Source of the DNA: Streptomyces sp. B1I3
GTDB taxonomy: Bacteria > Actinomycetota > Actinomycetes > Streptomycetales > Streptomycetaceae
DNA: 64,000 nucleotides
Assembly (NCBI RefSeq): GCF_030816615.1
Contig: NZ_JAUSYD010000001.1
Coordinates: 7,400,501-7,464,500, forward strand
Reading direction: 5' to 3'
The position numbers were made by a program, and so were the translations under genes. Shown here one piece after another: positions 1,205 to 60,911 of the stretch (the first letter of the stretch is position 1; each line of letters starts with the position of its first letter). The notes under the pieces are model-generated. The model was given only the letters and a program-made list of their open reading frames with translations. It had not been told where the DNA came from and did not search any database.

Positions 1205-1825
1205 GTGGCGAACCTGGTCTACAAGCGGGTCTCGACCGACCGGCAGTCGACGGCCCGGCAGAAGCTCGTCCTGGACGAGGCCGGGGTCGAGGACCCGGTC
1301 GTCTTCAAGGAGGACCCGGGCACCTCCAGTCGCCTCCATCCCCTCCAGCGGCCGAAGTTCCGCGAACTGCTCACCTACGCGCGGCCGGGCGACACCGTGC
1401 ACATCTACGAGATGTTCCGCCTCGTCCGCGGCACCGGGCACATCCTCGACGTGCTCGACGTCCTCCACCGCGACCGTCTCGCCCTGCGCATCCACGACGG
1501 CGCGTTCTCCGCGATGGACCTCACCGCCCGCCACCTGCGCACCGGAGAGCTCCTGTCCACCGTCAAGTTCGTGGTGCAGACCCTCACGGCCGCCGGCGAA
1601 CTCCAGCGCCGCCTCCAGCGGGAGCTGACCTACGACGGACTGCGGGCCGCCGAGACCAAAGGCAGCAAGGGCGGACGCCGCCCCGCCGTGGCGGCCGCGA
1701 AGACCGCCGACGTACGCACCGCGTACCTGGAAGGCCGCTCGATCGCCGCTCTCGCCCGCGACCACGGCGTTAGCCGCGGCGCGATGTACGGCCGTCGCCG
1801 ACCTCCCCGTGCGGCGGACTCGTAG
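1205..1825 (+). CDS. Small serine recombinase (resolvase/invertase family), C-terminal tail frameshifted
   Basis: A 206-residue site-specific recombinase. The GTG at 1205 opens with VANLVYKRVSTDRQSTARQK, where RVSTDRQ carries the nucleophilic serine. The catalytic domain continues through ERxxxE-like helices to ~residue 140, and the tail has the Hin-type helix-turn-helix (SIAALARDHGVSRGAMYG). After DHGVSRGA the frame departs from the family. A two-base loss near 1785 (atgtacg for an expected atccgtacg) would explain it, because the other frame reads TAVADLP as expected. It abuts a truncated tyrosine recombinase on the opposite strand. It may be the resolvase of the Tn3-type element whose tnpA ends appear at 5.4 and 16.5 kb (inference). 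Confidence 0.8.
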   Translation: MANLVYKRVSTDRQSTARQKLVLDEAGVEDPVVFKEDPGTSSRLHPLQRPKFRELLTYARPGDTVHIYEMFRLVRGTGHILDVLDVLHRDRLALRIHDGAFSAMDLTARHLRTGELLSTVKFVVQTLTAAGELQRRLQRELTYDGLRAAETKGSKGGRRPAVAAAKTADVRTAYLEGRSIAALARDHGVSRGAMYGRRRPPRAADS

Positions 1826-2358
1826 AGCATCTTCCACTGCGTCTTCTCCCGCAGGGCCACGTCAAGCCGCCATAGGGCAGCGATCTGGTTCTCCGCGAGA
1901 GCCTTGGTGCGGTCCGGCGGTGCCGGCCGCCGCTCGATGCCGATCGTGGGATCGCCTTCGATCCAGCCCTGGCGCTGCCACCAGCCGATCGCTTTGCGGG
2001 CGATGGACAGTTCACGGTTGACGGTGTCGGCGTCCATCTCGTCTGCCCGCGCGGCGGCCAGCTCGGCCAGGACTTCCGGCAGTGCCGGGTCGTCGATCGC
2101 GGTGACGGGGAAGACGAGCGGCTTCGCGCCCCGGCGGGCGGGTCCGGTCGGCGCCGGTTCGCCGGCGAGCATCCACCCCCACGTCGTCAGCGAGATCCGG
2201 TAGATCCGTGCGGAGAACTTCGCGATGCCCGCGCCGGTGAGGTAGCGCTCGACCGCCGCGGTGTACGACGCGGGCGGGGCGGACAGAGGTACGACCCGAG
2301 CGCTCGGCAACCGAAGCGCGCCCCCGCTCCCGAGCTCGGTCACCGTTTCGATCGTCAC
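1807..2358 (-). pseudogene. Phage-type tyrosine recombinase (integrase), N-terminal two thirds only
   Basis: The minus strand encodes a SAM-like core-binding domain and the start of the catalytic domain. Recognisable parts are the N-terminal helical segment YTAAVERYLTGAGIAKFSAR, the linker DTVNRELSIARKAIGWWQRQ and the approach to the catalytic Arg (TQWKMLYESAAR). Homology stops at SAAR, about residue 184, before the RHRY active-site residues, exactly where the serine recombinase ends on the other strand. The gene was therefore cut by the recombinase-bearing segment. The ATG at 2358 is the likely start. It is non-functional as it stands. Confidence 0.8.
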
Positions 2359-2384
2359 GCCGTCCCACCACCCTTCCGGTACTG

Positions 2385-2488
2385 CCGCAGTAAATGCTTA
2401 CACCTCGCCCCGGTGGCCGGGTAGGCCCGCCGCAGGTCGCGATGATCACGGTAGGGGTCCGCCGCAGTAAATCCGGCATTTACTGCGG
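2385..2488. repeat. Repeated CCGCAGTAAAT motif: candidate integrase att/arm sites
   Basis: CCGCAGTAAAT occurs at 2385-2395 and 2462-2472 and inverted at 2478-2488. The last two form a perfect 11+5+11 inverted repeat. The first copy also sits in the small palindrome TACTGC-C-GCAGTA (2380-2392). The array lies just upstream of the truncated integrase and overlaps the stop of the YafY-type gene, as expected for an attachment site that reconstitutes the 3' end of a host gene (inference). Confidence 0.45.
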
Positions 2489-3229
2489 TAGTTCTTTCGC
2501 TCTCCGCTGGGCGGCTGCGGTGAGCTGGGCGGCCAGATTCTTGAGCGCCTGCCGTAGTTCGTCGGGATGGTGGATGGTGAAGGGCCACTTCAGGGAGGCG
2601 AGCATGTGGGCCATGCCGTCCAGCCGTTCTGCCCGTGCGTGCATCAGGACGCCGGTGGGCTGGGCGGTGAGGGTCACCGCTGAGCGGGGCAGCCGGCGGG
2701 TGATCTCATGGAGGGGGCCATGGACCGTCACCTCGACCTGCCAGCGGTAGGGCCCCTGAGCGAGGGTCGAGGTCAGGTGGGCGACGCGGTCGAAGCCGTC
2801 GGATGCGGTGAAGCTGTCGGCTCGGGAGGTGACGGAGGTGATGCGGTCGATGCGGAAGGTTCGCAGGCTGTCGCGGAGGTGGTCGTGGCCGACGACGTAC
2901 CAGCTGCCGGTGTGGACGACCACGCCGTATGGGTCGATGTCGCGTTCGGTGTGTTCCTGGCGCCAGGACTGGTGGCTGATACCGACGGTCGTGTGGGCGC
3001 GGGAGGCCTGGCCCAGTGCCAGCAGAACGCCGGTTCCGGGTGCCTGACCGATCACGGCGTTGGCGGTGAAGGACAGGGTTTCCCGCATGGCGGCGAGCGG
3101 TTCGCGCAGGGCGTGCGGAAGCACCCGCTCGATCTTGGCCAAGGCACCGGCACTGGCTGGCGCGGCAGTGCCCATGCCCAGACGTTCTGCCGCGAGCAGG
3201 CCAAGAACGACGGCGAGGGCCTCGTCATT
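2480..3229 (-). pseudogene. YafY/WYL-type transcriptional regulator, C-terminal part (split by inversion)
   Basis: The minus frame enters at the inversion junction with TNDEALAVVLGLLAAERLGM and continues through a WYL ligand-binding domain (DPYGVVVHTGSWYVVGHDHL, then RTFRIDRITSV) to a C-terminal WCX-like domain ending KELPQ. The N-terminal DeoR-like helix-turn-helix of the same gene lies inverted at 3586-3803. Flipping the 3230-3808 segment rejoins the halves in the usual order LPRLVLT-NDEALAV, apart from a one-base slip. The intact protein would be a DNA-binding sensor controlling the divergent hydrolase. Confidence 0.8.
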
Positions 3230-3234
3230 GGTGA

Positions 3235-3507
3235 CTGAGACGTCCGGCTGCCCCGGTCACCGGAGCAGCCGCGTAGCTGTGGGCGACCAGCGTGACGTCG
3301 CGCAGATCGTTCCGCTCGACGAAGCCATTGATGTCCGCGATGTGCGTGTCCAGATCTGTCTCGGGTCCGCCCTGGTTTGCGTGCTTGGCCAGGCCCGCCA
3401 GTGTCAGCTGCAGCGCCGTGTGACCACGCTCCCGCAGAGCGCGAGCGGTGTCTTCCCAGGCCCACGACCCGAGCCAAGCGCCGGGAACGAGTACGAAGGT
3501 GGCCATG
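3235..3507 (-). pseudogene. Alpha/beta hydrolase, N-terminal part (inside the inverted segment)
   Basis: ATG at 3507, with GGGAG upstream, gives MATFVLVPGAWLGSWAWEDT and then the nucleophile elbow VAHSYAAAPVTGAA with Ser in HSY. The frame ends a few residues later at the inversion junction with GRLSHQ and a stop. The remainder, LERVAYVDSAS onwards, is on the plus strand from 3804. Family members are small cofactor-free hydrolases. This copy cannot be made as one chain in the present orientation. Confidence 0.8.
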
Positions 3508-3585
3508 TGATCTCCCAGAAGTAGGTGCTGCGGGGAGCGTAAAGTCGATACAGGACAGAATCCGCCCTGAAATGCCGAGTGATCC

Positions 3586-3803
3586 ATGTCGCATCCCCTC
3601 ACCCGCGTGCTGACCCTGCTCGAACTCCTCCAGTCCAACGCCCGGCTCACCGGGGTGGAGCTGGCCGACCGGCTGGACACCGACGTGCGCACGGTGCGCC
3701 GGTACACCGCGCACCTGCGGGAACTGGGCATCCCCGTGGAGGCCGAACGTGGCCGCTACGGCGGCTACCGACTGGCCCGCGGCTCGTATGCCCCGTCTGG
3801 TCC
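3586..3803 (+). pseudogene. YafY-type regulator, N-terminal helix-turn-helix part
   Basis: ATG at 3586 encodes MSHPLTRVLTLLELLQSNAR followed by the winged HTH (LTGVELADRLDTDVRTVRRY, then GRYGGYRLARG). This is the standard start of YafY/PafC-like regulators. After ARG the expected continuation RMPRLVLT is found one base out of frame, and then the inversion junction. It pairs with 2480-3229. Confidence 0.8.
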
Positions 3804-4262
3804 TCACCTGGAGCGCGTGGCCTATGTGGACAGTGCCTCATTTGCCGCGGGCAGTGCATGCTCGACCTCATGCCACCGCAGGCAGCGGACCAGCTGCGCC
3901 AGCAGGTCGACGCGTCTGGCGACGGGTGGCGGCTGCCGATGCCGCCGTTTGAGGTCCTGGGCTTGTCCAGCAGCCTCGACGGGCTCGATGAGCACCAGCT
4001 GGACGCTCTGCGCACGGGTGCCACTCCTCAGCCGTTCGGTACCTTCACCCAGCGTCTCGCCGGCCCGGCCGAGCCCGGTCCCGGCATGGACCATGTCCTG
4101 GTGGCGTGCCATGACTTCACGGGGCTGCTGGATGCCGGGGTGCCGATGCTGGCCTACCTGAACCAGCCGCCGTGGCGGCGCTTCGACCTGCCCACCGGGC
4201 ACTGGCCGATGCTTTCCGCGCCCGCCGAACTCGCCGACATCCTCGACAAGGCCGTCTCCTGA
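3804..4262 (+). pseudogene. Alpha/beta hydrolase, C-terminal part, additionally frameshifted
   Basis: The strand resumes the hydrolase at LERVAYVDSASFAAG. A one-base shift near 3852 moves the rest, QCMLDLMPPQAADQLRQQVD to the end LPTGHWPMLSAPAELADILD, into another frame. The TGHWPMLSAP segment contains the catalytic His of the family. Together with 3235-3507 it makes one hydrolase of about 240 residues. The stop at 4262 lies 26 bp before the next gene. Confidence 0.75.
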
Positions 4263-54700: not shown

Positions 54701-55699
54701 GTGGTTCTGAGGCCGCCTGTGGAGCCGATGCTCGCGCAGGCCCGCGAGACCCTCCCACCCCTCGGCGCCGGCGGGATGGCGGTGCAGCCCAAGTTCGACG
54801 GCTTCCGGGCCCTGCTCTACACCCCTCTCCGCGAGGGTGACCCGGTGCTCTTGCAGACCCGGCGCGGCGCGCTGGTCCAGGACCGCTTCCCCGACCTGAC
54901 CGCCGCCGCACGCAGCCTCCCGAACGGGCTCGTCCTGGACGGCGAGCTCGCCGTCCTCGACCCTCACGGCCAGCTCAGCTTCACTGCCCTGCAACGCCGC
55001 GCGACCGCCGGCCGCAACGCTCCAGTTCTGGCGGCTGAGATGCCCGCGCACTTCATCGCGTTCGACGTCCTGCAAAGCGACGGCCAGGAGCTCCTGGCCG
55101 AGCCGTTCGCGCGCCGCCGCGAGGTCCTGGAGGCACTGTTCGCCGGTCACTGGCTGGGACCGCCGTGGACGCTGTGCCCCTCGACCACTGACCCCGTGAT
55201 TGCAGGGGAGTGGCTGTATGAGTGGACCGACGTCCCCGGCCTCGAAGGCGTCGTGGCCAAGAGCCTGACGGGCCGCTACCGGCCGGGCGTGCGCGGCTGG
55301 ACCAAGGTCCGCCGCAGGAACTCCACCGAAGCCCTCATCGGCGGTGTAACCGGCTCCCTACACCGCCCCCACGTTCTGCTCCTCGGTCGCCACGACACCA
55401 CCGGCCGCCTACGACTGGTGGGGAAGACCGCCCCGCTGAAACCCGGCCCGGCACGGGACCTCGCCGACCACCTCACCGCGGCCGACCCCGACCACCCATG
55501 GACCGGCGTCCGCTTCACCGCATCCTGGAACAGCCGCACCCCACTGGAACCGGTCCTTGTCGCCCCCGTCCTCGTCGCTGAGATCAGCGCCGACGTCTCA
55601 CAGGACCACGGAGTATGGCGCCACCCGCTGCGCTACGAACGACTTCGCCTGGACGCCTCCGAAGCCGATGTTCCGCAGTTCGGCGAGACGAGCCCCTGA
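54701..55699 (+). CDS. ATP-dependent DNA ligase (LigC/LigD-like ligase domain)
   Basis: 332 residues from GTG 54701, with GGAGGGAG upstream. The adenylation domain has motif I AVQPKFDGFRALLY with nucleophile Lys31, motif III-like HFIAFDVLQSDGQELL, motif IV LEGVVAKSLTGRY and motif V GWTKVRRRN. The OB-fold C-terminal domain follows (TEALIGGVTGSLHRPHVLLL, GVWRHPLRYERLRLDASEAD). It seals nicks using ATP. Stand-alone ligases of this type assist repair or end joining and are often on streptomycete plasmids or accessory islands. Appears intact. Confidence 0.92.
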   Translation: MVLRPPVEPMLAQARETLPPLGAGGMAVQPKFDGFRALLYTPLREGDPVLLQTRRGALVQDRFPDLTAAARSLPNGLVLDGELAVLDPHGQLSFTALQRRATAGRNAPVLAAEMPAHFIAFDVLQSDGQELLAEPFARRREVLEALFAGHWLGPPWTLCPSTTDPVIAGEWLYEWTDVPGLEGVVAKSLTGRYRPGVRGWTKVRRRNSTEALIGGVTGSLHRPHVLLLGRHDTTGRLRLVGKTAPLKPGPARDLADHLTAADPDHPWTGVRFTASWNSRTPLEPVLVAPVLVAEISADVSQDHGVWRHPLRYERLRLDASEADVPQFGETSP

Positions 55700-56406: not shown

Positions 56407-56452
56407 GTCCAGTTCAGTCTCTGAACGCCGAAAGGGTTAAAGAACAAGCTTA

Positions 56453-57309
56453 GAAGCCATCTCATTTGGACGACTCGGTATTCTGTGCGTCATGGTGGGG
56501 ATCGTTGAGCGGCTGGTGCCGGATGAGTTGTGGGAGTTGTTCCAGCGGGTGGTGCCTGAGGCGCCGTCGCGGCCTCAGGGCGGTGGTCGGCGTCGGCACG
56601 GCGACCGGGAAGTGCTGGCGGCGATCGTCTTCGTGGCCACGTCGGGTTGTACCTGGCAGCAGCTGCCTTCAGCGTCGTTCGGCCCGTCCGGAGCGACCGC
56701 CCACCGGCGGTTCTCGGAGTGGTCGAAGGCCAGGGTGTGGGCCAAGCTCCACCGCCTGGTCCTCGACGAACTCGGTGCCCGCGGAGAGCTGGACTGGTCG
56801 CGGTGCGCGATCGACTCGGTGAACATGCGGGCCCTGAAAAGGGGGACCTGACAGGTCCGAATCCTGTCGACCGAGGCAAGTACGGCTCGAAGATCCACCT
56901 GATCACAGAAAGGTCAGGTCTGCCCATATCCGTCGGCATTTCCGGGGCGAACCTGCACGACAGCCAGGCCCTGATCCCGCTCGTGAAGGGCATCCCGCCC
57001 ATCCGCTCGCGCCGCGGCCGGCGACGGCGCAAGCCCGGCAAACTCCACGCCGACAAGGGCTACGACTACCCCCACCTGCGGCGATGGTTACGCGAACGCG
57101 GCATCGCCCACCGCATCGCCCGCAAGGGAGTCGAGTCCTCGCAACGGCTGGGCCGCCACCGCTGGACCGTGGAACGCACCATGGCCTGGCTCGCCGGCTG
57201 CCGCCGCCTCCACCGACGCTACGAACGCAAAGCCGACCACTTCCTCGCCTTCACCAGCATCGCCTGCACCCTCATCTGCTACCGAAGGCTCACCAAATGA
57301 GATGACTTC
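56453..57309 (+). mobile_element. IS5-type insertion sequence, copy B (intact)
   Basis: Left GAAGCCATCTCATTTGG and right (inverted) GAAGTCATCTCATTTGG form 17-bp repeats with one mismatch at 56453 and 57309. The body is nearly identical to copy A at 10770 without its 11-bp deletion. It cuts a PIN-type gene on its right. Confidence 0.88.
56492..57300 (+). CDS. IS5-type transposase, copy B (two frames joined by -1 slip)
   Basis: Frame 1 (56492-56851) carries MVGIVERLVPDELWELFQRV and the first Asp (SRCAIDSVNMRAL). Frame 2 continues GPNPVDRGKYGSKIHLITER, KLHADKGYDYPHLRRWLRER (second Asp), GRHRWTVERTMAWLAGCRRL (Glu) and KADHFLAFTSIACTLICYRR. The join is at aaaaggggg (56835-56843), identical in copy A, which points to programmed frameshifting. 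About 269 residues when fused. Probably active. Confidence 0.82.
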
Positions 57310-57446
57310 GAAGTCGGGATCGTGCTCGCGTGTCAGGTCGCACACCGCGACCAGCATGTCGTTTGATTGACGAAGGCGGTGACTTGCGGATTGGCGCTCA
57401 CGGCCTTCGATAGGCCCTCACTGTCGAGCAGGAGGATGCCTTGGTT
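57310..57446 (-). pseudogene. PIN-domain (VapC-like toxin) remnant
   Basis: The minus strand reads NQGILLLDSEGLSKAVSANP, QVTAFV (PIN start with the first catalytic Asp in LLDSEGLSK). After an internal deletion and frame change it gives MLVAVCDLTREHDPDFEVI, resembling the domain end, before being cut by IS5 copy B. No antitoxin was found. Confidence 0.5.
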
Positions 57447-57579
57447 CAACCAGCCCCGCGGTGGCATTCGGCTGAAGATCGGCTATTCGGGTTTGGGAAT
57501 CGACTGATGAACGGTAAAACCACCATGCGTTTCATCGGTTCAGCGTTCCCACTCGACGACTCTATTGAGGAGAATAGAA

Positions 57580-57807
57580 ATGGCCCGCTCTCTGTCTGAA
57601 ATTCTTTCCGGTATCGACACCGACAAGGTCAGCATTGATCAGGATGGTCACATTGCAAGTGATGATCCGGATATCGAAGCCCGGCTGGTCGAACTCAGGG
57701 AAGCTCTCGACGTAAACAGTCTCGCGACTATGGACGACAATAACGGAAGTATGTGTAAATGCACCACCCGTCCCACGCCGATTCAGTCGGGATGTGCGCA
57801 GAAGTGA
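57580..57807 (+). CDS. Putative RiPP precursor peptide (75 aa, Cys-rich tail)
   Basis: ATG 57580 follows GAGGAGA at a good distance. The first ~55 residues are an acidic helical leader (MARSLSEILSGIDTDKVSID, then ASDDPDIEARLVELREALDV and MDDNNG). The last ~18 are a distinct basic, Cys-containing core: SMCKCTTRPTPIQSGCAQK with Cys59, Cys61 and Cys72. Leader/core architecture, small size, and overlap with a radical SAM gene are the hallmarks of a ribosomally made, modified peptide. A thioether (sactipeptide-like) product is a reasonable guess but not shown. Composition is AT-richer than the surroundings. Confidence 0.7.
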   Translation: MARSLSEILSGIDTDKVSIDQDGHIASDDPDIEARLVELREALDVNSLATMDDNNGSMCKCTTRPTPIQSGCAQK

Positions 57808-58877
57808 CCAATGGTGCCGTAATCCCTCGCGTAGCAGATGATCAGATCGTTACTGCCTTCAGTAACGAGATCCTGCATCTCATCATCCTCCCCACCGAGC
57901 AGTGCAATTTTCGTTGTGTCTACTGCTACGAGGACTTCAGCGTCGGAACCATGAAGGCCCCCGTGATTGCGGGAGTGAAACGGCTGTTGGCACGCCGCAT
58001 CCCGACCCTGAGGCAGCTGCACATCGGATGGTTCGGAGGTGAACCGCTCATTGCACTCAATGTGATTGAGGATATCTCCAAGTCGGTGAAGTCGCTCACA
58101 TGTGAACGGTCTGAACTAACGTACACGAGTGAGGTCACGACCAACGCCTACAGGCTTGACTTGGCGACTGCGGAGCGCTTGAGCGAGATGAATGTTCGGC
58201 ATTACCAAATTACGCTGGATGGGCCTCCAGAATTTCACGATCAGACGCGCATCCAGAGAAATGGGCAAGGTTCGTTCGAGCGAGTATGGGGCAATCTGCT
58301 CGCACTCAGGTCAAGTTCTCTCGACCTGAGTATCTCCCTGCGGGTGCACGTCACGCCGGCCAATCTCATTGCGATGCCAGAGTTCCTGCTCCGGATCCGT
58401 AAGGCATTTTTGGATGACCCGAGATTCGTAGTCCTTATCAAGGCTGTGGGTCACTGGGGAGGGCCAAACGACGACAAGTTCGACGTCCTTGATGCTACTA
58501 AGGGTGCCGACGAGATCAAGGCGCTCGAGGAGCTTGTATCTCGGGAGGCCGGAACGCAATCCGTGTATCACCCGGGAAACGTTTGTTATGCTTCTCGCCC
58601 CAACTCGCTGCTAATTAGAGCTTCGGGGGATGTCGGCAAATGCACAGTAGCATTGTCCGACCCCGCAAACAGTATCGGTCGTCTGCTCGAGGACGGGAAT
58701 CTGGAGCTACGGAGCGATAGCCTCAAGCCGTGGCTCCGGGGCTGGAATAGTGCCGACGCCGACGTTCTCGAGTGCCCACTCGTAGGCCTGCCGAGATCTT
58801 CGGGAGAACCAGTGCTTATGCAAATCGGAGCTGGGCCTGGCGCCCCGAAGGGCGGCCATGGTGAAGCCAGCGAATGA
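57792..58877 (+). CDS. Radical SAM/SPASM-like peptide-modifying enzyme
   Basis: About 361 residues. ATG 57792 or GTG 57804 (a GTGA overlap with the precursor stop) are the likely starts. The cluster motif is CNFRCVYCYED (Cys38, 42 and 45 counted from 57792), preceded by LILPTEQ, with WFGGEPL as the SAM-binding GGE motif and HYQITLDGPPEFHDQTR later in the barrel. The C-terminal part has Cys spaced as in twitch/SPASM domains (GNVCYASR, DVGKCTVAL, DVLECPLVG) for auxiliary clusters. Peptide-modifying enzymes of this kind form thioether or C-C links in RiPPs. The gene overlaps both neighbours, so it sits in a tight operon. Confidence 0.85.
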   Translation: MCAEVTNGAVIPRVADDQIVTAFSNEILHLIILPTEQCNFRCVYCYEDFSVGTMKAPVIAGVKRLLARRIPTLRQLHIGWFGGEPLIALNVIEDISKSVKSLTCERSELTYTSEVTTNAYRLDLATAERLSEMNVRHYQITLDGPPEFHDQTRIQRNGQGSFERVWGNLLALRSSSLDLSISLRVHVTPANLIAMPEFLLRIRKAFLDDPRFVVLIKAVGHWGGPNDDKFDVLDATKGADEIKALEELVSREAGTQSVYHPGNVCYASRPNSLLIRASGDVGKCTVALSDPANSIGRLLEDGNLELRSDSLKPWLRGWNSADADVLECPLVGLPRSSGEPVLMQIGAGPGAPKGGHGEASE

Positions 58878-60051
58878 TTTTGCGTATCACTATCCACGCA
58901 TCCAACGCTTCCCCTTGACTTACTGGTCCGAAGGCCTGATCGATTTCTTGCAGAGAAGAACCACTTCGGATTTCGATGAACAGGCAAAGACCCTGTCATC
59001 CCTGAGTAATGCCGCGTTGGTATTCGCCTATCTTGGCCAGCTGGATAAAGCAAAGGAAATCTGCGAGGCGCAGCTTTACTGGCTCGCGAATAACGCTAGC
59101 GGCTCCGGGGAGTCGTCCCTTTTAAACCGACTGGCTTTGGACCCCTGGGTGAACATGGGGCGATTGCTGGGATACCAAGGAGAAACAAAGAAGGCTTTGA
59201 CCCATTTTGCTAATGTACACTCCCTCGCCTCACGCGGCGAGGTTTCTTTTGGGCCGTGTCAAATTACCTCACAGGCTTGGAAAGAAATCGTTGACAGACA
59301 CCCGCACATGAAGGGAGTGCCTCAGGCTGTCTATGTGATCGATTCCCTGAAGGCGCTCCTTCAGGCAGGTGACCATCAAGGTGCACTGAACTTCATTGAT
59401 TCGTTGAGCTGTATCGAGCATGCAGGCATCCGCTCTCTGGTGAACGAGAGGAGGTTGATCCGCACGCCGCGTCAGGGGTTGCATTACCTAGTGAACGAGG
59501 GGATGCTAATTGCTAAATCTCGCCTGGGTCGGCACGAAGAGGTAATCGCAAACACTGACGATCGGTTGAGCGGCGCCGACATTTATTACGAGGCGGTCCT
59601 CATGCTTTATAATATCGAAAGCCGTCATGTGGCAGGTGTGCCGAGCGCTGCTGGGCGCATCCAGAAATTGTCCATTCTTCTGGCGTGCGGCGCTTTCGAC
59701 TCCGTTCCCCCGACGACGCTGCTCCGATTTGTCGAGAAGCTCGGTGATCTGCTTGAGCGGACCGAGAAGGGGAGGCTTGCGCTTGGCGTTTACACAAAAG
59801 GCCTCGCACTGGCCCGGCAACTTAATGACCAACTTGCTGAGTGGACCTTCCTCAAGTCTCTGATGCGGCTCGATGTCTCATCCGAAGGGCAACGGCGTGA
59901 ATGGAAATCGGCACATCGTCAACTCAGTGCCGTGTGCGAATACAGCGCTGTGCGCCGGGTAGAGGAAACGGCCAACCTTTCAAGCATGCCGGGAAACGTG
60001 CACGAAAAGCTACTGGGCGTTGTCCGGCATGTCACCGGTACCAATTACTGA
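58858..60051 (+). CDS. Helical-repeat (TPR-like) protein of the RiPP cassette
   Basis: 397 residues from ATG 58858, overlapping the radical SAM gene by 20 bp. All-helical with repeat character: TLSSLSNAALVFAYLGQLDK and AKEICEAQLYWLA, WVNMGRLLGYQGETKKALTH, VIDSLKALLQAGDHQGALNF and EKGRLALGVYTKGLALARQL are TPR-like pairs. No signal or membrane segment. I do not recognise a named family. Tight coupling suggests a scaffold, regulator or leader-binding partner of the enzyme. No protease or exporter follows; a transposase starts about 110 bp downstream. Confidence 0.7.
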   Translation: MVKPANDFAYHYPRIQRFPLTYWSEGLIDFLQRRTTSDFDEQAKTLSSLSNAALVFAYLGQLDKAKEICEAQLYWLANNASGSGESSLLNRLALDPWVNMGRLLGYQGETKKALTHFANVHSLASRGEVSFGPCQITSQAWKEIVDRHPHMKGVPQAVYVIDSLKALLQAGDHQGALNFIDSLSCIEHAGIRSLVNERRLIRTPRQGLHYLVNEGMLIAKSRLGRHEEVIANTDDRLSGADIYYEAVLMLYNIESRHVAGVPSAAGRIQKLSILLACGAFDSVPPTTLLRFVEKLGDLLERTEKGRLALGVYTKGLALARQLNDQLAEWTFLKSLMRLDVSSEGQRREWKSAHRQLSAVCEYSAVRRVEETANLSSMPGNVHEKLLGVVRHVTGTNY

Positions 60052-60162: not shown

Positions 60163-60911
60163 TTGGTCATCCATCCTGCCGCACTCGACCTGCCGCATGC
60201 GCTCGTGGAGTGGGTCACCATGGTGATCGTCACCCGTGAGGGCGACCGACGCTGCAAGCTCCGTCCGTCCCAACGCGCGATCGTGGCCCTGGTGTACCTT
60301 CGCGAACACACCACTCTGGCGAAGATCGCCGCCGGGTTCGGGATCAGCGAGTCCACCGCCCACGCCTACACCAGCGCCGTCATCCACCTGCTCGCCGACC
60401 GTGCACCGGGTCTGCTGAAGACGCTGCGCGAGCACGATCCCGACTTCGTCCTGCTCGACGGGATCCTCGCCGAGTGCGACCGGATCGGCGACGGCCGGGC
60501 CGACTACTCCCACAAACACCGGCGACATGGCGTGAACGTGCGGGTCGTCACCGACCCCGGCGGCCGGCTGCTGTGGCTCTCGCCCGCCCTGCCGGGCCGC
60601 ACTCACGACCTGACCGCCGCCCGCACCCACCGGATCATCCGGATCTGCGAACGCCAGGGCGTTCCCATCGTGGCCGATCTCGCCTACCAGGGCGCCGGCC
60701 CGTGGCTGACCACCGGCATCAAACGCAGGCCCCTGCAGGAACTCACCCCCACCGAGAGGCCCCTCAACCAGGCACTGGCCGCAGCGAGGGCACCCGTCGA
60801 ACGCGGGTTGCGAGGCTGAAGTCCTGGCGAATCTTCCGCAGGTCCCGATGCAGCCCCAACCGCATGACGTCAATCGCCAAGGCCATCCTCACTCTGGAGC
60901 GGCAACGCTGA
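60163..60911 (+). pseudogene. IS5-type (DDE_Tnp_4) transposase, one-base frameshift near the end
   Basis: TTG 60163, with GGAGG upstream, starts [20 protein letters not shown]. The HTH is [20 protein letters not shown] and [20 protein letters not shown]. The catalytic parts are [20 protein letters not shown] (Asp) and [20 protein letters not shown] (Asp). After PVERG the frame stops, but the next frame gives [20 protein letters not shown] and AKAILTLERQR. One extra G in the GGG run at ~60803 would restore it. Confidence 0.82.

Follow-up and report, generated by a model that had tools for sequence, protein, structure and literature searches.

A window of 64,000 nucleotides from Streptomyces sp. 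B1I3 (the whole analysed stretch, bases 7,400,501-7,464,500, which lies near one end of a single 7.52-Mb contig) contains at positions 57580-60051 a cassette of three overlapping, co-directional plus-strand open reading frames (ORFs) for a short precursor peptide, a radical S-adenosylmethionine (rSAM) enzyme and a protein of the tetratricopeptide repeat (TPR) kind. The comparative analysis strongly supports the assignment of this cassette as an operon for a ribosomally synthesised and post-translationally modified peptide (RiPP), whose enzyme belongs to an apparently unnamed rSAM family. With moderate confidence, the cassette is further proposed to be a ranthipeptide-like system making thioethers between asparagine and cysteine, in which the TPR partner would hold the precursor instead of a RiPP recognition element (RRE), the module with which such enzymes usually bind the leader. 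The gene pair and its core motif are evident from the sequences, whereas the bond, its acceptor atom, the role of the TPR protein, export and the biological function are inferred. The sequence-only reading of this DNA had described three overlapping genes for a leader/core peptide, an rSAM protein and a helical-repeat protein, and the ORFs bear this description out.

The association of the precursor with the enzyme is conserved. A protein search with the rSAM enzyme yielded 60 loci in a genome collection based on GTDB and 69 plasmid records. A tree was built from 72 rSAM rows, leaving aside the partial genes L053 and L024 and rows shorter than 250 aa, and it recovered a clade of 49 rows (counting L030 and L107, which are the same place) with support of 100/97. 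Precursor relatives were gathered by an iterated profile search with the window's peptide as the seed, and a precursor detected in this way stands on the same strand beside the rSAM gene in 36 of the 49 clade rows, within 200 bp in 35 of them and within 713 bp in all. The earlier RiPP interpretation, which had turned on whether a precursor recurs beside homologues of the enzyme, is supported by this co-occurrence of one precursor family with the enzyme. Among sampled Streptomyces genomes the enzyme is present in 9 of 392 (E <= 1e-30), and a precursor lies beside it in all nine as well as in both Streptomyces plasmids examined. Homologues of the Pseudoalteromonas enzyme occur in 12 of 108 genomes of that genus (E <= 1e-40); at the same threshold, the only hit among 289 genomes of other Alphaproteobacteria and the only hit among 87 genomes of the Labrenzia family were the respective source genomes. 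In S. rhizosphaerihabitans (L002) the three genes are found in the same order, with identities of 63% for the precursor (75 aligned positions), 73% for the rSAM enzyme and 60% for the TPR protein, and a third Streptomyces triad is found in L080. The rSAM/precursor family is scattered across several bacterial phyla and apparently undescribed, as no rSAM/TPR/Asn-Cys family of this kind appeared in the PubMed Central (PMC) titles and abstract openings searched, a body of text that mostly excludes subscription papers.

The precursors share a leader and differ in their cores. The leader conforms approximately to I.(V/L)DexGr(I/V).I.(D/N)P, and one of its glycines is invariant in 28 aligned rows, the cores of which are variable. 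The window's peptide matched no Pfam and no NCBIfam 20.0 model, and the best matches among the 28 rows were weak (the NCBIfam CTB bacteriocin family in four rows, best E 6e-4, and the Pfam type-A lantibiotic in one row, E 2e-3). Within the cores, cysteine is preceded by asparagine much more often than in shuffled sequences. For 28 independent precursors, trimmed to their last 75 residues, with the motif counted in the last 32 and same-genome or same-place repeat loci excluded, asparagine stands at position -3 of 26 of the 64 cysteines (shuffles 5.5 +/- 2.2) and at most four residues before the first cysteine in 23 of the 28 precursors (shuffles 7.5 +/- 2.3), and none of 5000 shuffles was as high in either case. 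Asparagine at -3 was the strongest of all residue/offset pairs with at least six cases. Before clustering, the counts for 40 precursors, from which L053 was also excluded, were 39 of 86 cysteines with asparagine at -3 and 33 of 40 precursors with asparagine at most four residues before the first cysteine (shuffle mean 10.9, maximum 20, 2000 runs). Examples are ININC, INVNC, INFGC, LNGSC and NILC. In the five TPR-linked precursors that come from Streptomyces and alphaproteobacteria, the spacing from asparagine to the first cysteine is one residue longer: NGSMC in the window and L002, NFGTC in Labrenzia (L028), NTGTC in a Hyphomicrobiales metagenome-assembled genome (MAG; L017) and the repeat NASAC-QP-NGSKC-SP-NASQC in L080. 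As a partly independent check, in 20 loci where the precursor profile detected nothing, a C-terminal NxxC was found in 11 of 115 ORFs near the rSAM gene (8 of 20 loci), versus 25 of 781 ORFs elsewhere (Fisher p 0.0035); those in L037, L039 (twice) and L032 plainly bear the leader pattern, and others look doubtful. The earlier statement that the core matches no RiPP class is therefore only partly right, since the Asn-Cys motif of the core has a chemical precedent in the Cβ thioether of NxxC peptides.

The enzyme is of the SPASM/twitch type, as indicated by its PF04055 match, its three C-terminal cysteines and its top fold matches. The cysteines C276, C295 and C339 are kept in 38, 37 and 37 of the 38 precursor-linked rows (one of which, L083, repeats L003), and the sole row departing in cysteine count is L053, a 205-aa gene truncated at a contig end. 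The GGE sequence is also present in the window's enzyme and conserved among homologues, so that the CxxxCxxC motif, the GGE and the extra C-terminal cysteines noticed at the outset are confirmed as features of the family. The SPASM domain, however, is a truncated one with three cysteines and not a full one. The outlying members L025 and L065 keep more C-terminal cysteines in a full-SPASM-like pattern, and by comparison the enzyme of the window appears to be a SPASM protein in shortened form, with one auxiliary site and only three cysteine ligands. Only 33 residues precede CxxxCxxC if translation begins at the GTG (48 if at the ATG), which is too few for an N-terminal RRE, and the predicted structure (predicted local distance difference test, pLDDT, 83; predicted TM score 0.82) has one short helix before the barrel. 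A separate RRE protein was likewise not found among the three cassette proteins by Pfam and NCBIfam scans. The NCBIfam neighbours of the enzyme are maturases of cysteine-containing peptides, namely TIGR04463 (136.5 bits against a cut-off of 525), Clo7bot (119.9 against 600), CefB (100.2 against 600) and PapB (89.7 against 340), and the enzyme lies far under the cut-off of all ten NCBIfam families listed for it; membership in the known sactipeptide, PapB, SCIFF and TIGR04463 families was rejected on these scores. Matches to the TIGR04463, Clo7bot and CefB models begin at model positions 76-83; for TIGR04463, the best-scoring curated family and one unnamed in the PMC literature searched, the match starts at position 76, and the N-terminal part is missing. 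Among 22 family rows scanned, TIGR04463 and PapB matched all 22 and RumMC three. The top fold match was 5why/5wgg (Foldseek E 3.6e-14, Z 23.7, root-mean-square deviation 3.6, 301 aligned), which we take to be CteB, the entries being titled as a sactipeptide thioether enzyme, followed by anSME (Z 23.4), ChlB with its leader (Z 23.1) and then SkfB (Z 19.6); EpeE (Z 16.2) is in the same list.

The third protein was said in the sequence-only reading to be neither a standard RRE nor a peptidase nor a transporter, and this has stood: six Pfam TPR models match it (E between 3.7e-5 and 9e-3, none reaching the gathering score), and TPR domains lead its Foldseek list. The best of these matches are structures of LGN TPR domains in complex with a partner peptide or protein. 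In 11 aligned homologues W23, N51, P96, N99, R102, L271 and D324 are invariant, and N51 and N99 occupy like positions of two successive repeats; peptide-binding TPR domains carry such asparagine ladders. The protein is related to proteins encoded directly 3' of the rSAM gene in Labrenzia and in the Hyphomicrobiales MAG (profile E 5.3e-7), and an iterated search joined the Streptomyces, alphaproteobacterial and Pseudoalteromonas partners. In all, the partner occurs in 12 of the 49 clade rows, from these three groups, and it is spread over several parts of the tree (five changes, three of them forced by starred branches), a history for which repeated gain and repeated loss are both possible. Elsewhere in the phylum it was found in 1 of 396 genomes (E <= 1e-5), which is the window's own, and neither a PDB sequence search with the TPR profile nor a search of plasmids with the Labrenzia TPR protein gave a match. 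A 341-aa protein of Anabaena/Nostoc loci was considered as a homologue and rejected after a negative profile comparison. Other RiPP clusters are described as encoding TPR domains, which form part of the hydroxylase BhaC1 and, in the pbs cluster, of a putative arginase; in the available excerpts neither partners a thioether rSAM enzyme.

The agreement of motif, cysteine pattern and fold suggests the formation of an Asn-Cys thioether, which might proceed as follows. The rSAM cluster would cleave SAM to the 5'-deoxyadenosyl radical, which would abstract a hydrogen from Cβ of the asparagine three or four residues before the cysteine, and the sulfur of the cysteine, held at the open iron site of the three-cysteine auxiliary cluster, would then close a small thioether ring. 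In the window's peptide the likeliest ring would be N55-C59 (NxxxC), with Q69-C72 (QxxC) or C61 as possible further or alternative sites, while the TPR protein may grip the precursor through the conserved N51 and N99 and so present the leader to an enzyme that lacks an RRE. The closest precedent is the streptococcal pair NxxcA/NxxcB, which likewise combines a short precursor, asparagine three residues before cysteine and an rSAM enzyme with the same proposed reaction of cysteine sulfur with Asn Cβ. NxxcB joins Cys23 of NxxcA to Cβ of Asn20 (PMC8326336, PMC13361665; consulted in excerpt), and in the excerpts at hand this reaction is reported from streptococcal NxxcA only. Asparagine at -3 is as frequent in the present family as given above, whereas the window's precursor has it at -4 and -5. 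The streptococcal clusters are described in the same partial sources as tied to Rgg/SHP quorum sensing, with no mention there of the leader pattern, the TPR partner or the exporters seen in the present family; the next genes on both sides of the window's cassette are transposases, in an analysis that included no search aimed at Rgg. Among thioether rSAM RiPPs, for which NxxC is the precedent, the present family stands apart by its leader family, the lack of an RRE and of a second auxiliary site, its breadth across phyla and the TPR partner.

Several observations weigh against this proposal. The window's precursor has no strict NxxC before C59, neither C61 nor C72 has asparagine at -3, and C72 has glutamine there, in the window and L002 alike. 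Five of the 28 clusters lack asparagine in the four residues before the first cysteine, and the motif count is not wholly independent because the collecting profile also models the N and C columns of the core. Of the 20 profile-negative loci, 12 yielded no candidate ORF, and among the 11 ORFs at least one, of 28 aa in L024, looks spurious; likewise, a precursor could be named in none of the seven clade rows formed by L008, L030 and its duplicate L107, L031, L036, L106 and L109. The likeness to NxxcA/NxxcB concerns motif and reported chemistry, and CteB, anSME and ChlB are tied in Z, although anSME is not a thioether enzyme. The structure model of the partner is weak (pLDDT 65; best Foldseek E 2e-3), and its similarity to the Pseudoalteromonas proteins, encoded 5' of the precursor, is modest (E 4.5e-4, probability 33%), as is that between the alphaproteobacterial and Pseudoalteromonas partner profiles (E 3.4e-3, probability 10%). 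The iterated partner search is not fully specific, since it also drew in a TPR protein from elsewhere in the L002 genome (L079), with no rSAM gene beside it in the stretch examined. Finally, the partner is missing from 37 of the 49 clade rows and is therefore not generally required.

The same absence, together with the position of the gene 5' of the precursor in Pseudoalteromonas, favours a different role, in which the TPR protein would serve the mature peptide, in immunity, sensing or regulation, instead of acting as a chaperone of the precursor. Sensing of peptides is a further function of TPR folds, and this role is a serious contender, though in our judgement it falls short of an even chance. 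No DNA-binding domain was found at E <= 0.01 in a Pfam scan of the 11 TPR rows, and the partner gene is closely joined to the rSAM gene: the two overlap in the window, L002 and Labrenzia, and no more than 10 bp separate them in L080 and L017, an arrangement that fits a complex of partner and enzyme.

With regard to the chemistry, the same RiPP pair may instead form a Cα thioether, as in sactipeptides, or use an acceptor other than asparagine, which we consider unlikely. One of the best fold matches is SkfB, a sactisynthase of the twitch type, and models of both sactipeptide (RumMC) and ranthipeptide (PapB) maturases match rows of the family. The spacing of asparagine before cysteine, however, agrees with NxxcA, and the first-ranked fold, presumably CteB, is that of a non-alpha thioether enzyme. 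The ranthipeptide maturases CteB (for SCIFF) and PapB (for freyrasin) resemble the present system in their non-alpha thioether logic, CteB also as the presumed first-ranked structure and PapB through model matches in every scanned row. In PapB the donor cysteine reportedly precedes the acceptor, as in CteB, whereas in the present family the asparagine precedes the cysteine. For SCIFF, the source excerpt gives the donor Cys32 as linked to a later threonine. According to the accessible part of PMC8326336, CteB has an N-terminal RRE and a SPASM domain with two clusters, one of them an auxiliary cluster whose open coordination faces the peptide and can bind a substrate cysteine; the window's enzyme has no RRE and a single three-cysteine site. 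SkfB is alike in its reduced auxiliary-cluster domain and in being an rSAM thioether enzyme, but it has an RRE and makes a Cα thioether (PMC8326336, in excerpt). Still less probable is that Asn-Cys forms a metal-binding or recognition motif while the enzyme carries out epimerisation, C-C bond formation, cysteine oxidation or a backbone change. Short cysteine-rich cores could bind metal, anSME, which oxidises cysteine or serine, scores level with CteB, and the epimerase EpeE appears in the same list, but EpeE ranks lower (Z 16.2 versus 23.7), and the auxiliary clusters of anSME are fully coordinated, whereas thioether enzymes have an open site (PMC8326336, in excerpt), such as the three cysteines of the present enzyme would leave.

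Table 1. Features of the cassette and its flanks (positions in the window)
Feature	Position	Strand	Basis
Precursor peptide gene, 75 aa	57580..57807	+	ORF and sequence; L002 and clade relatives
GAGGAG, likely ribosome-binding site of the precursor gene	57567..57572	+	Sequence; 7 nt before ATG
Conserved leader segment VSIDQDGHIASDDPDIEARL, residues 17-36	57628..57687	+	Alignment; G23 invariant in 28 rows
Core region NNGSMCKCTTRPTPIQSGCAQK: N55-x-x-x-C59, C61, Q69-x-x-C72	57739..57804	+	Sequence, alignment, Asn-Cys statistics
Radical SAM maturase, 357 aa from GTG 57804	57804..58877	+	PF04055 E 1.2e-14
Alternative longer rSAM ORF, 372 aa, from ATG 57759	ends 58877	+	49-bp overlap with precursor
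CNFRCVYC, radical SAM [4Fe-4S] motif	57903..57926	+	Three Cys in 38/38 precursor-linked rows
C276, C295, C339 (ATG numbering), probable ligands of one auxiliary cluster	58584..58775	+	
TPR-type partner protein, 397 aa	58858..60051	+	Pfam, alignment, model, Foldseek
IS4/5-family insertion sequence, left of cassette	56449..57313	+	Inverted ends; DUF4096, DDE_Tnp_1
Second transposase ORF, right of cassette	60163..60819	+	DDE_Tnp_4, HTH_Tnp_4

The three genes are tightly coupled (Table 1). The precursor and rSAM genes meet in an in-frame GTGA stop/start overlap at 57804, and the GTG is the likelier rSAM start because the identical overlap recurs in L002; farther on, 20 bp are shared between the rSAM gene and the TPR gene. 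As had been noticed from the sequence, the cassette is less GC-rich than its neighbours (precursor 52.6%, rSAM 56.6% and TPR 54.4%, against 67.7% for the window), the six lowest-GC 1-kb windows of the stretch all overlap it, and it is bracketed by two transposases. The transposase of the left element is split over two frames (56492-56851 and 56647-57300), and the 13-base inverted ends of that element, at 56449 and at 57301-57313, differ by two mismatches. The triads of L002 and L080 are likewise GC-poorer than their whole loci. A recent transfer, which had been deduced from this setting, is supported only in part: the patchy presence in Streptomyces and the foreign composition agree with it, but the nearest relative is merely about 70% identical in DNA. 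A scan for sigma-70-like promoters, which covers no other promoter types, found none, and 5 terminator sites were predicted where 2.7 would be expected. A DUF6065 gene, which lies 3' in L002, was rejected as a fourth operon gene, as tblastn found none in the window or in the other loci searched (same-genome repeats aside). An ORF at 54701-55699 of the window resembles, as judged by eye, an ATP-dependent DNA ligase. That the cassette is a decayed remnant without a product, as the flanking insertion sequences, the lack of a recognised exporter or protease and the missing sigma-70-like promoter could imply, is highly improbable, since the three ORFs are intact, their overlaps equal those of L002, and between window and L002 the nonsynonymous rate (dN) is far below the synonymous rate (dS) in all three genes (dN/dS 0.182/1.858 for rSAM, 0.296/1.773 for TPR and 0.269/1.062 for the precursor, with dS near saturation).

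Regarding export, neither an exporter nor a protease could be recognised next to the cassette of the window, in line with the earlier observation, or next to that of L002; some relatives in other phyla do carry an exporter. The scanned loci of Pseudoalteromonas (L010) and Anabaena (L004) encode a C39-peptidase ATP-binding cassette (ABC) exporter with HlyD, and their precursors have Gly-Gly leaders. By eye, a signal sequence opens two Rhodobacter-type precursors, where it is twin-arginine translocation (Tat)-like, and one precursor from Sphingomonadales, where it is Sec-like. Since some relatives have such exporters or signals, the product probably acts outside the cell, and in the Streptomyces host a general exporter and protease would serve. 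In L080, a minus-strand ORF resembling a major facilitator superfamily (MFS)-type efflux protein (1813-3612) is divergent and lies about 1.1 kb before the precursor, next to a plus-strand TetR-like regulator ORF (3385-4059), both judged by eye.

Some further features of the relatives were also noted. The Rhodobacter-type precursors (L014:3546-3899 and L022:1625-2047) start with an RR signal sequence, and in L022, less clearly in L014, the leader pattern occurs twice in one protein, as if it were a small repeated domain. A Flavobacteriales MAG (L039) has two similar tandem precursors, whose ORFs end some 430 and 150 bp before that of the rSAM enzyme and which have cores of the form VNVNCxxCATN(I/L)YCPPKAVA. 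A second conserved peptide, some 64 aa long and with a Gly-Gly motif, is found in Pseudoalteromonas, Shewanella and Colwellia loci and may be another precursor or a signal (L009, L010, L011, L013, L016, L020, L021, L027 and L059). The Pseudoalteromonas loci L106, L108 and L109 combine the family rSAM enzyme (about 365 aa) with a second rSAM protein of about 528 aa and a protein of 376-379 aa, which in L106 has no Pfam match and is accompanied by HlyD; in L108 a Gly-Gly peptide bears NGDC, and the identity of the precursor is uncertain in all three. In Duganella (L058:6001-8955) two tandem precursors lie between two different rSAM genes, the second encoding 444 aa, and on a Deinococcus plasmid (L065:4308-7110) the precursor is encoded on the opposite strand, and the gene directly 5' of the rSAM gene is that of a luciferase-like monooxygenase (PF00296). 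A short ORF (MNVDKYGIVTM...IENGHC) starts 537 bp before a split rSAM ORF in a Thermoplasmata archaeon MAG (L024), so the family may extend to archaea.

Summarizing, annotation pipelines would label the enzyme just as a radical SAM protein, because the precursor has no model in NCBIfam 20.0 or Pfam and the enzyme reaches no specific one there. Only tentatively can these loci be viewed as one multi-phylum, apparently unnamed class of RiPPs with Asn-x2-3-Cys thioethers, made by RRE-less three-cysteine rSAM enzymes and relying in some lineages on a TPR protein that replaces the RRE. If this were true, Asn-Cys chemistry would span Actinomycetota, Pseudomonadota, Cyanobacteriota, Deinococcota and other phyla, and its natural substrates would differ in ring size (NxxC versus NxxxC), with three tandem repeats in L080. 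It would also mean that a second, unrelated route exists for delivering a leader to a radical enzyme, and with an RRE-less enzyme and a TPR protein in one operon, the question whether a different fold can stand in for the RRE becomes directly testable.

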